From: Halobaculum roseum
GTDB lineage: Archaea; Halobacteriota; Halobacteria; Halobacteriales; Haloferacaceae
Reading direction: 5' to 3'
Length of the DNA stretch: 64,000 nt
Assembly (NCBI RefSeq): GCF_019880245.1
Contig: NZ_CP082286.1
Coordinates: 2,498,521-2,562,520 of the forward strand
Every line of letters starts with the position of its first letter. Positions within the stretch are counted from its first letter, which is position 1. Both the position numbers and the translations under genes were made by a program. Below are positions 19,365 to 56,284 of the stretch, piece by piece. The notes under the pieces were generated by a model. It was given only the letters and a program-made list of their open reading frames with translations, had not been told where the DNA came from and did not search any database.

Positions 19365-19439
19365 GGGTTGGTGGTCTAGTCCGGTTATGACGGCTCCTTC
19401 ACACGGAGCAGGTCGGCGGTTCGAATCCGCCCCAACCCA
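19365..19439 (+). tRNA. tRNA-Val (CAC)
   Basis: 75 nt cloverleaf. Acceptor GGGTTGG pairs with CCAACCC, discriminator A at 19439. Anticodon stem GCTCC/GGAGC encloses the 7-nt loop TTCACAC, giving anticodon CAC (valine GUG codons). T-arm GGCGG-TTCGAAT-CCGCC. No intron, no encoded CCA. An AT-rich TATA-like segment (GCCTTAAGC) lies about 30 nt upstream. Its 3' end is copied downstream (see the repeat module). Confidence 0.95.
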
Positions 19440-19593
19440 GTTCTGCGGCGGCACGTCGCGACGAGGACTCGCTCGCGAGTCGAGGAGCCGTGCCGCCGGG
19501 CGGTGTCCGGCGGATTCGAAGCAGGGAGGTCGCGCGCGGGCGAACCGCGTGAGCCGAGCACGTCCGACCGGGGTTCAAATCCGCCCCGACCCA
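19440..19593 (+). repeat. tRNA-Val trailer module: stem-loop, inverted T-arm, 46-bp core, tRNA 3'-end copy
   Basis: In order: a stem-loop with 10-bp arms (19446-19455 and 19489-19498) and a nested GACTCG/CGAGTC palindrome; an inverted copy of the T-arm (GGCGGATTCGAA, 19509-19520); a 46-bp core (19523-19568); and a direct copy of the last 22 nt of the tRNA (19572-19593, 20 of 22 identical). The copy lacks the 5' half and anticodon, so it is not a second tRNA gene. The core recurs, inverted in the chromosome, beside the CAT tRNA at 48717-48762. The rest of 19440-19675 has no gene. Confidence 0.8.
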
Positions 19594-48680: not shown

Positions 48681-48886
48681 GCCGCTACAACTGGGCCCAG
48701 AGGGATTCGAACCACCGTCGGACGTGCTCGGCTCACTGCGTTCGCCTGCGCGCGACCTCCCTGGCTCGAATCCCTCCCATGCCACAGACGCGGCACGGAC
48801 TCGTCGCTTCGCTCACGGCTCGTTGCACTCGCCGTTCGCATCGCGGCCTCGCGGCCGCACGCTCCTCGTCGTTGTGCCGCTACAAC
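48681..48886 (-). repeat. tRNA(CAT) trailer module: stem-loop, inverted T-arm, 46-bp core, tRNA 3'-end copy
   Basis: Read away from the tRNA on the minus strand: a stem-loop with 7-bp arms (48874-48880 and 48790-48796, GCGGCAC/GTGCCGC); an inverted T-arm copy (about 48764-48777, GAGGGATTCGAGCC on the minus strand); a 46-bp core (48717-48762); then a direct copy of the tRNA 3' end. That copy plus its flank forms a 33-bp perfect direct repeat, 48681-48713 versus 48876-48908. The core is 43 of 46 identical by eye to the one beside tRNA-Val. No gene lies in 48631-48886. Confidence 0.8.
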
Positions 48887-48990
48887 TGGGCCCAGAGGGA
48901 TTCGAACCCTCGACCGCCCGGTGTCCCATCCGACGGCCGAAACCGGTCGGAGTATGAGCCGGGTGCTATACCAGACTAAGCTATGGGCCC
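48887..48990 (-). tRNA. tRNA with CAT anticodon, probably elongator tRNA-Met, with 30-nt intron
   Basis: 104 nt with a 30-nt intron at 48923-48952. Acceptor GGGCCCA/TGGGCCC; anticodon loop CTCATA-A after splicing (anticodon CAT). A canonical BHB: outer helix CCCGG/CCGGG, 3' bulge ACA, central 4-bp helix CTCA/TGGG, 5' bulge TAC, inner helix TCCGAC/GTCGGA. Elongator Met is favoured because this is the CAT tRNA that classically carries an intron in haloarchaea; tRNA-Ile2 (agmatidine-modified CAT) is the alternative. Confidence 0.88.
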
Positions 48991-54042: not shown

Positions 54043-54561
54043 TCACCGCGTCACGTCGGTCACGGTTCGGACCTCGTCCATCGACTCGTGTTCGACGACG
54101 ACGCTCGTCGGGAGGCCGCCCTCGAAGGTGACGGACGCCTCGTACTCGCGGTAGACGATCTGCTGGGTGCAGACGTCCCCGCCCTCCCGGACCGTCTCCA
54201 CGCGGACGCGGAGTTCGTCGGCGTCGGCATCGTACTCGACCGACTTCAGCGACGCCTGCATGCAGCCGTTCTTGCCCGAGATGACGCCCGATACCGTCAC
54301 CGCGTCGCCGCCGAACGCGACGCTTGCGGACTCACCGGGCTCGCTCGCGTCGCCGGTGCGAGCGAACGACCGGTCGACGACCGACGGCGATCCCGTCCCC
54401 GTGTCGGTCGGCGGCCCCGTCCCGGCTGGCGTCTTCGTGGGCGTCTCCGACGGTTCGGTCGTCGGTTCGTCGCCGCCGCCCGATCCACCGCCGCCGGTAC
54501 AGCCCGCCAGCGCGGTCGACCCGGCACCGGCCACGAGCGTGAGGACGGTGCGTCTGTCCAT
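54043..54561 (-). CDS. Tat-type lipoprotein, unknown function
   Basis: 172 residues. N-terminus MDRRTVLTLVAGAGSTALAGC carries a twin-arginine pair and a lipobox (L-A-G-C, Cys 21), so it is exported folded and lipid-anchored. A Gly/Thr/Pro spacer follows (about 22-65), then a small beta domain with one Cys pair (GKNGCMQASL and GGDVCTQQIV), possibly a disulfide. Widespread haloarchaeal type; function not assigned. Start at the ATG at 54561. Confidence 0.85.
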   Translation of the reverse strand: MDRRTVLTLVAGAGSTALAGCTGGGGSGGGDEPTTEPSETPTKTPAGTGPPTDTGTGSPSVVDRSFARTGDASEPGESASVAFGGDAVTVSGVISGKNGCMQASLKSVEYDADADELRVRVETVREGGDVCTQQIVYREYEASVTFEGGLPTSVVVEHESMDEVRTVTDVTR

Positions 54562-54691
54562 GTTTCACCGGTCCTCGGCTGAACGCAAAAGTTCGACGTA
54601 GACACAAGCGGGCCTTTGTGCCACGGCGGTCGGTCGCACGGGTCGGTCGGATCGGAATCCCTTTACGTGGCCCCGGCGTCGGTTGAGTTGA

Positions 54692-54764
54692 GTCCGGGTA
54701 GGGTAGTGGACTATCCTCTTGGCTTGCGGAGCCAGGGACCGGAGTTCAAATCTCCGTCCGGACG
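54692..54764 (+). tRNA. tRNA-Arg (GCG)
   Basis: 73 nt cloverleaf without intron. Acceptor GTCCGGG pairs with TCCGGAC (one G-T pair), discriminator G. Anticodon stem TTGGC/GCCAG encloses TTGCGGA, giving anticodon GCG (Arg CGC/CGU). T-arm CGGAG-TTCAAAT-CTCCG. No CCA encoded. Its T-arm and acceptor end recur several times in the repeat array immediately downstream. Confidence 0.95.
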
Positions 54765-55500
54765 TTTTCGGCGACACAACGCGACGAGCGAAGCGAGGAG
54801 CAGTGTCGCCATTGGAGTCTATACACGGAGATTTGAATCGAACAGTCGCAGCCCGCGAGCGAAGCGAGCGGGACCGTCTGTTCAGAGTTCAAATCTCCGT
54901 CCGGACGTTCCTTCACTCACTTCGTTCGTTCAGTCACGTCCGACGTGCCCACGCTCACTTCGTTCGCGTGGACTCCGTCCGGACGTTCTTACCGCGCCGC
55001 CACACTGCGAGCGACTTCTGTCGCTCGCACGACGCGGCGCGGTTATCGCTCTGCATACGGAAATTTGAGCAGCGAACGAGCGAGCGTCAGCGAGCGAAGT
55101 GAGTGAGTTCAAATCTCCGTCCGGACGTTTTCGAGGCGCAACGACGACGAGCGAAGCGAGTCGTCCGCGCCGAATTTCAGTCTATACACGGAGATTTGAA
55201 TCGAACAGTCGCAGCCCGCGAGCGAAGCGAGCGGGACCGTCTGTTCAGAGTTCAAATCTCCGTCCGGACGTTCCTTCACTCACTTCGTTCGTTCAGTCAC
55301 GTCCGGCCGTGTTCACACTCGCTCGTTCACGGGTCGCTTCGCTCCCCGTTCACGGTCGCGGTCTCACTTCGTTCGACCGCGCACCGCTCGCGTGAACTCC
55401 GTCCGGACGTTCTTACCGCGCCGCCACACCGCGAGCGACTTCCGTCGCTCGCACGACGCGGCGCGGTTGTCGCTCTGCATACGGACAATTGCACAGCGAG
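54765..55500 (+). repeat. Tandem tRNA-Arg-derived repeat array
   Basis: Direct copies of the tRNA 3' end (T-arm plus acceptor, 25 nt with the gene's own at 54742-54766) lie at 54885-54909, 55105-55129 and 55248-55272; shorter 15-nt copies (CTCCGTCCGGACGTT) at 54973-54987 and 55397-55411. Inverted T-arm copies (ACGGAGATTTGAA) are at about 54827-54839 and 55186-55198, with weaker ones near 55058 and 55480. The full copies recur at 363 bp, so the locus is a tandem duplication. Stem-loops (54770-54777 with 54803-54810) and GCGAGCGAAGCGAGC palindromes fill the spacers. No gene is supported. Confidence 0.85.
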
Positions 55501-55546
55501 CGACCGCCACGGACAGACTGAAACGCGCGCCCGTCCGAGTTCCGCT

Positions 55547-56284
55547 GTGACCACCAGCGACGCCCCGGCACCGGACGACTCGGCCCGCGTCGCGGCGCTG
55601 CGTGCCGGCCTCGCGCTGTACGCGGCCGGCGAGTACCACGCCGCCCACGACCCGTGGGAGGCGGTGTGGCTCGACATCAGGAGCGCCGTCGCCGCCGCGG
55701 GAGACGGCGCCGGCGACCCGGACGCGTCCGCCGACATCGACACCGCCGACGACGCGGCGGCCGACACCCTCGTTCGCGACGAGGCGCTGTTTCACGGGCT
55801 GATCCAGTTCACCGCCGCCCAGTACCACGCCCGCGAGCGCAACTGGTCGGGCGCGGTCGGCCTCGCCGAGAGCGGACGCGGGTACCTCGCCGACGTGCCG
55901 GACAACTACCGCGGCGTCGACGTGGCGGCCGCGCGCGACGCGCTCGCCCGACTGCGGGCCGACCCGGAACGCGTCGAGCGCGAGCCGGCGCCGCCGCTGA
56001 CCCACGAGGGCGAGCGCGTCGCCGCCGAATCGCTGTCGCTGGAGGCGGTCGCGCTGGCGGCCGAGGCGCTGGCGGAGGAGCACGGGCTCGACGCCGACGC
56101 GGTCGCGGACGCGGCGCGGTTCGCCAGCGAGGAGGAAGCGGCCGGCCGTTCGCGCTTCGCGGCGCTGCTGTTCGACTTCGTCCGCGCCGGCGACGCGGGA
56201 TCGCGGGGGATCGTGTACGACCGGCTCACGGGGTTGGTCGAACAGGAGCGGCGCAAGGAGGAGGACGTGGAGGGGCTGTTCTGA
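55547..56284 (+). CDS. DUF309-family protein
   Basis: 245 residues, all-helical. The DUF309 signature is at the N-terminus: GLALYAAGEYHAAHDPWEAVWL, with H/E residues that may bind metal; a second motif, FHGLIQFTAAQYHARERNW, follows. Biochemical role unknown. The GTG at 55547 is chosen since the in-frame sequence upstream runs through the tRNA-Arg repeat array and lacks family features. Confidence 0.82.
   Translation: MTTSDAPAPDDSARVAALRAGLALYAAGEYHAAHDPWEAVWLDIRSAVAAAGDGAGDPDASADIDTADDAAADTLVRDEALFHGLIQFTAAQYHARERNWSGAVGLAESGRGYLADVPDNYRGVDVAAARDALARLRADPERVEREPAPPLTHEGERVAAESLSLEAVALAAEALAEEHGLDADAVADAARFASEEEAAGRSRFAALLFDFVRAGDAGSRGIVYDRLTGLVEQERRKEEDVEGLF

Follow-up and report, generated by a model that had tools for sequence, protein, structure and literature searches.

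Tandem arrays of tRNA 3'-end copies and hairpin modules behind tRNA genes in Halobaculum roseum and other Halobacteria

The closest described counterparts of the DNA reported here are the rtT repeats (RttR, RF00391) of the tyrT and tyrV loci of Escherichia coli, which lie in tandem 3' of a tRNA gene, each with the tRNA 3' end; the tail copy of each repeat pairs with an inverted stretch in it, which closes a hairpin-like RNA. At the tyrT locus of E. coli MG1655, the tail copies are present, and GGGGAAGGAT pairs with ATCCTTCCCC within the 171-nt rtT RNA. Integrons hold cassette arrays at a primary site, whose attC sites are imperfect one-strand hairpins of fixed orientation with the core consensus GTTRRRY. 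Direct repeats of tRNA parts downstream of a tRNA are also found at the attachment sites of archaeal tyrosine recombinases (SSV, pNOB8, pT26-2 and SNJ2 types), and archaeal integrases commonly use tRNA sequences for integration (PMC8371274). In Haloferax volcanii, transcription terminates at T stretches and also at hairpins, and two RNA 3' ends have been mapped downstream of tRNA-Pro (PMC7237163).

The locus examined here lies behind tRNA-Arg(GCG) in a stretch of 64,000 nt of the Halobaculum roseum genome (the window), and it is best explained as belonging to a family of tRNA-tail arrays that spans the haloarchaeal class. In these arrays, direct copies of the tRNA 3' end that stop at the discriminator base (T) alternate with inverted copies that span the T-loop and T-stem without the acceptor strand (T'). 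The E. coli tyrT/rtT system is the nearest known case and has a like plan; however, its inverted arm consists of T-stem and acceptor, and the haloarchaeal arrays occur on many tRNAs per genome in nearly all Halobacteria, with a library of hairpin modules termed h1 and h2. A cmscan search of positions 54500-55600 with E values up to 5 returned only the tRNA and a sub-threshold mascRNA, leaving RF00391 unmatched, and assignment to a known RNA family was therefore rejected. The units resemble attC sites in being imperfect one-strand hairpins of fixed orientation, arrayed at a primary site and subject to module turnover, but their core is GTTCRAATC rather than GTTRRRY, the modules are gene-less, no integrase was found with the arrays, and the arms track the host tRNA. 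Unlike tRNA attachment sites, the repeats are separated by only ca. 60-200 nt, have inverted copies in between, and enclose hairpin modules alone, with no integrase-bearing element. H. volcanii terminators likewise consist of a stable hairpin and then a U-rich stretch (PMC7237163), whereas the hairpin arm of the arrays copies the host tRNA tail and the units are tandem. Kink-turn, C/D and H/ACA guide motifs were sought by eye in h2, and none fitted.

The first-pass annotation had described the tRNA-Arg region as a 363-bp tandem duplication of a unit derived from the tRNA 3' end, with alternating inverted T-arms, two partial copies 424 nt apart and a second unit lengthened by ca. 61 nt, and our results bear out its coordinates, the 363- and 424-nt spacings, the alternation and the extra length. 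In the window, the 21-mer GTTCAAATCTCCGTCCGGACG from the tRNA-Arg 3' end has exactly four occurrences, one within the tRNA itself (54744) and the others at 54887, 55107 and 55250; the chance expectation is 0.02, and no shuffled sequence gave four. The spacings of 143, 220 and 143 nt yield the 363-nt period. The array thus comprises three exact 21-nt tail copies, matching the tRNA 3' end at 20/20 positions, and two partial 13-nt copies with a spacing of 424 rather than 363 nt, in alternation with four 13-nt stretches that repeat T-loop and T-stem in inverted form (Table 1). Positions 54811-54942 and 55174-55305 are 98% identical, and positions 54961-55082 and 55385-55506, again 424 nt apart, are 91% identical; the 363-bp repeat is nevertheless uneven, with the segment directly 3' of tRNA-Arg unlike that at 55128. 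The long hairpins and the shift in composition that had been proposed were also recovered: the hairpin at 54815-54907 has a predicted folding energy of -46.2 kcal/mol against -25.6 kcal/mol for shuffled sequences (z = -5.9), and GC drops from ca. 0.70 to 0.56-0.62 in the array. The architecture is not an assembly artefact, because independent genomes hold the same modules in other arrangements.

Table 1. Coordinates of the tRNA-tail array behind tRNA-Arg(GCG) and of the single units at two further tRNAs in the window.
Feature	Position	Strand	Detail
tRNA-Arg(GCG), parent of tail copies	54692..54764	+	ARAGORN, Rfam RF00005
Module h1 type a	54765..54824	+	U-rich trailer TTTTC, then hairpin
T' 1, inverted T-arm copy ACGGAGATTTGAA	54825..54837	+	0 mismatches
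Module h2 type e	54838..54887	+	hairpin, inner motif AGTCGCAG..GACCGTCT
T copy 1	54888..54907	+	20/20 with tRNA 3' end
Module b	54908..54972	+	T-to-T type
Partial T copy	54973..54985	+	CTCCGTCCGGACG
Module h1 type c	54986..55056	+	
T' 2	55057..55069	+	2 mismatches
Module h2 type f	55070..55107	+	
T copy 2	55108..55127	+	20/20
Module h1 type d	55128..55187	+	
T' 3	55188..55200	+	0 mismatches
Module h2 type e, second copy	55201..55250	+	
T copy 3	55251..55270	+	20/20
Module b'	55271..55396	+	longer form of b
Partial T copy	55397..55409	+	CTCCGTCCGGACG
Module h1 type c, second copy	55410..55480	+	
Decayed T', closing the array	55481..55493	+	3 mismatches
tRNA-Val(CAC), one unit downstream	19365..19439	+	
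T' of tRNA-Val unit	19508..19520	+	
T copy of tRNA-Val unit	19574..19593	+	2 mismatches
tRNA-Met(CAT), intron-containing, one unit downstream	48887..48990	-	
T' of tRNA-Met unit	48765..48777	-	2 mismatches
T copy of tRNA-Met unit	48692..48711	-	20/20

Inside module b', positions 55313-55395 (TTCACGGGTCGCTTCGCTCCCC..TCACTTCGTTCGACCGCGCACC) correspond to a dispersed intergenic repeat with ca. 20 further matches in the genome. In its long-intron mode, ARAGORN joins a tRNA body to a distal tail copy (54692-55127 and 48692-48990), and the arrays can therefore mislead tRNA annotation.

When the H. roseum genome was searched with the region, a second array of the same plan emerged behind tRNA-Ser(GGA), whose own tail supplies the copies, and the tRNA-Val(CAC) and tRNA-Met(CAT) genes of the window carry one unit each. 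The surroundings of all 52 tRNA genes found with Rfam in the assembly, 43 of them on the main chromosome, were then surveyed over 1200 nt downstream and 1000 nt upstream, counting as a downstream copy any match to the tRNA's own 3' end with at most 3 mismatches in 18. At least one downstream copy was present at 21 of the 43 chromosomal tRNAs, and 30 tail copies in total lay within 1200 nt downstream of tRNAs, with none within 1000 nt upstream of those surveyed. Contig C2 has eight tRNAs, all of which lack a downstream tail copy. These eight form a cluster (L049, G000:C2:102000-107000) on a 240-kb contig, and a comparable cluster lies on the main contig of the sister species G005 (722172-724011). 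Two GGTTCAAATC matches 3.1 kb apart (G000:C1:2879954 and 2883098) fall outside every Rfam tRNA of the genome and could be the tails of an integrated element.

The units share one grammar, in which T is followed by a U-rich trailer, an h1 hairpin, T', an h2 hairpin and again T. T' and T close a long hairpin (T'-h2-T), and h1 forms a second one between T and the following T'. The h2 modules fall into recurrent types according to the sequence beside the T:T' duplex (NNAGAC/GGCGTGG, NCAGGGA/GACCGTGG, CCCTG/CTCCGG, NGAGAGAA/TTCGCGTGG and NTACGGAA/TTCAGGTGG), with 12 of 95 left in no type by the simple patterns used. All seven genome matches of the inner motif AGTCGCAG..GACCGTCT lie downstream of tRNAs in sense orientation, and a near-identical 40-nt h2 module stands behind Gly(GCC), Gly(TCC) and Met(CAT) at C1:2017042 with different arms. 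The eight nucleotides after T copies contain on average 3.5 T, as compared to 3.4 after real tRNAs and 1.3 in the background; U-rich trailers are also found at tRNAs without units. Arrays (L001, L075-L084) often end partway through an h1 or h2 hairpin, inside one of its two halves, which gives the appearance of truncation at the hairpin tip.

The sequence of the arms depends on the host tRNA. Direct copies share 19.5 of 20 positions with their own tRNA, against 12.6 with other tRNAs, and T' can pair with its own tRNA at 294 of 325 positions, against 255.5 ± 4.5 when the tRNAs were permuted (0 of 5000 permutations as good). Among 72 distinct arm pairs from H. roseum and other Halobacteria, T and T' covaried with a score of 0.258 (0.114 when shuffled) and 109 two-sided changes (47 when shuffled), a signal that is partly built in, since the class-wide loci were chosen by a pattern fixing the inner eight positions and leaving the outer five pairs free. 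Matched arms can arise from selection or from templated correction, and both fit these data. Folding of 95 h2 hairpins from across the class favoured the strand of tRNA sense over the antisense strand by 5.7 kcal/mol, of which composition accounts for 2.4 kcal/mol, and apical C-GNA-G loops numbered 62 in sense and 13 in antisense; these sequences belong to few module types, and their shared ancestry inflates the strand bias. The simplest source of such a bias is RNA, as a folded single strand in tRNA sense, but folded single-stranded DNA would account for it equally well.

Comparison with relatives indicated that units come and go. At tRNA-Arg(GCG), 11 congeners with identical tRNAs have between 0 and 3 full extra T copies, as the suggestion of copy-number variation in the first-pass annotation had implied, and modules assigned by eye are shared among them in altered order; two congeners (G004 and G006) have no unit there. 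Between H. roseum (G000) and G005, a two-genome comparison in which insertion and deletion look alike, the Tyr array of H. roseum has one extra block with T' copies at both edges, Met(CAT) at 48887, Leu(GAG) and Val(GAC) each have one unit more in H. roseum, bounded by T copies, and at Ser(GGA) an h1 module stands in third position in one species and in first position in the other. Modules therefore move as intact blocks whose breakpoints lie at T and T'. Extra units adjoin the tRNA in H. roseum relative to G005 at Gly-TCC, Arg-TCT and Arg-GCG. Polar growth beside the tRNA, which these three loci suggest, was rejected, as the extra unit at Val-TAC is distal and that at Tyr is an internal block. 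T copies diverged by 3.2% and modules by 6.9% (P = 0.035), which only weakly supports slower divergence of T copies. At the G005 ortholog of the Met(CAT) locus G000:C1:2017042 (L268), the array is absent and other, seemingly AT-richer DNA, possibly an integrated element, is present instead.

The class-wide search used the pattern GATTYGAA-N25-55-GTTCRAATC. Of the 292 Halobacteria genomes sampled, 284 had matches (75 of 77 genera), and the reversed control gave none; in many genomes, about one of the matches is tRNA-Ser(CGA) itself. Among the other genomes of the phylum sample (n = 93), three had matches, at no more than one place each. When 30 class-wide loci were inspected, ca. 24 lay downstream of a same-strand tRNA with a similar tail, and two were tRNA-Ser. 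A stricter type-1 pattern, run against 84,980 bacterial and archaeal species, hit 19 places, in haloarchaea only (genera including Halosimplex, Haloarcula, Halorientalis, Halovivax, Haladaptatus, Halorussus and Halovenus), and all type-1 units (20/20) were 35-376 nt downstream of a same-strand tRNA. Inversion switching of the shufflon kind was not supported, as the units located with a tRNA always had its orientation. The period and origin given in the first-pass annotation thus stand, while its reading of the region as a 363-bp duplication of a tRNA-Arg unit is too narrow, because the segments between the copies are interchangeable modules common to tRNAs and species; a duplication private to one tRNA is excluded by the genome-wide and class-wide recurrence. 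A phage or plasmid origin was likewise rejected, as annotated records held no similar DNA and viral-contig matches were mostly tRNA-Ser or chance. One viral-contig record (L128:13865-13908) contains a genuine-looking NCAGGGA-type unit 47 nt behind tRNA-Glu, which is probably the host flank of a provirus.

The best supported explanation, which we hold tentatively and on sequence evidence, is that the arrays may be structured 3'-trailer RNAs that provide tRNA transcripts with a series of back-up ends or terminators and are turned over by tail-copy recombination. It is preferred because the fold is of RNA sense, the copies end exactly as the tRNA does, and the U-rich trailer is repeated; as in intrinsic-type terminators, a stable hairpin (z = -5.9) precedes a U-rich run (on average 3.5 T within 8 nt, against 1.3 in the background). 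The array would be transcribed with the tRNA as its 3' trailer, and each stable hairpin with its U-rich trailer would offer, as a back-up, a further terminator or RNA 3' end, stopping read-through and protecting or shaping the trailer, while units would be gained, lost and homogenised as T copies recombine with each other, and T' copies likewise, on the template of the tRNA. Against this explanation, termination has no need of the exact host acceptor sequence, and the units are dispensable, given that G004 and G006 have none at tRNA-Arg and half of the H. roseum tRNAs have none. Nor does termination explain the recurrent non-Watson-Crick internal loops, which keeps an rtT-like RNA, a passive origin and folded cassettes under consideration. 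A passive origin, in which strongly transcribed tRNA genes undergo tandem duplication and template switching that leave functionless direct and inverted tail copies, with arms kept matched by hairpin-templated repair, is unlikely but deserves weight: the h1 of the tRNA-Met(CAT) unit starts like the native trailer, copy number is variable and dispensable, and arrays often end within a hairpin half, but a by-product would hardly be near-universal in one class and almost absent from the rest of the phylum sample, fixed in orientation, and furnished with the same h2 modules at different tRNAs and genera. A little less probable, on the sequences at hand, is a processed trailer RNA of the rtT kind, in which T'-h2-T would be freed from the pre-tRNA and act in trans, for example as a sponge or decoy for tRNA-binding proteins; the shared plan, with the tRNA-Tyr 3' end in the E. 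coli repeats, and the recurrent internal-loop types of h2, which would suit protein binding, agree with it, but the arrays match no Rfam family and a single tRNA may have 0 to 3 units.

The fold fits DNA as well as RNA, and T'-h2-T could in principle be an attC-like single-stranded recombination site, with the tRNA 3' end as primary site and a recombinase adding modules beside the tRNA. The presence or absence of exact unit lengths and the permutation of modules between sister species, the extra units adjoining the tRNA at Gly-TCC, Arg-TCT and Arg-GCG, the one-strand hairpins with recurrent internal loops, and the occurrence of almost the same h2 module behind several tRNAs within a genome would be expected of such sites. 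We nevertheless consider them unlikely, for the extra unit at Val-TAC is distal, no recombinase was identified with the arrays themselves, the attC core is absent, and ordinary recombination between T or T' repeats accounts for loss and permutation. The fuller version, a haloarchaea-wide gene-less cassette system in which a dedicated enzyme adds, permutes and removes modules at folded T'-h2-T sites, with any tRNA 3' end as landing site and an evolving array at each tRNA, appears more doubtful again. Least probable by our estimate, and very improbable, is a link to integrating viruses and plasmids whose attachment sites are tRNA 3' ends, with the arrays as their scars or decoys. Archaeal integrases do commonly use tRNA sequences (PMC8371274), and the T copies stop exactly at the tRNA 3' end; yet ca. 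60-200 nt of hairpin modules without element remnants separate the copies, phage and plasmid records lack similar DNA, and the viral-contig matches inspected included only one genuine-looking unit, that beside tRNA-Glu.

No published description of haloarchaeal tRNA-tail arrays was found among open-licence papers. If these findings hold, almost all haloarchaea have tRNA genes with a feature that annotation has missed. The tRNA loci with zero to several units provide a natural series for the study of archaeal tRNA transcript ends and of the origin of trailer RNAs, and the arrays could inform why E. coli has rtT-like repeats. If the arrays move, they would represent a new type of tRNA-associated genetic element.
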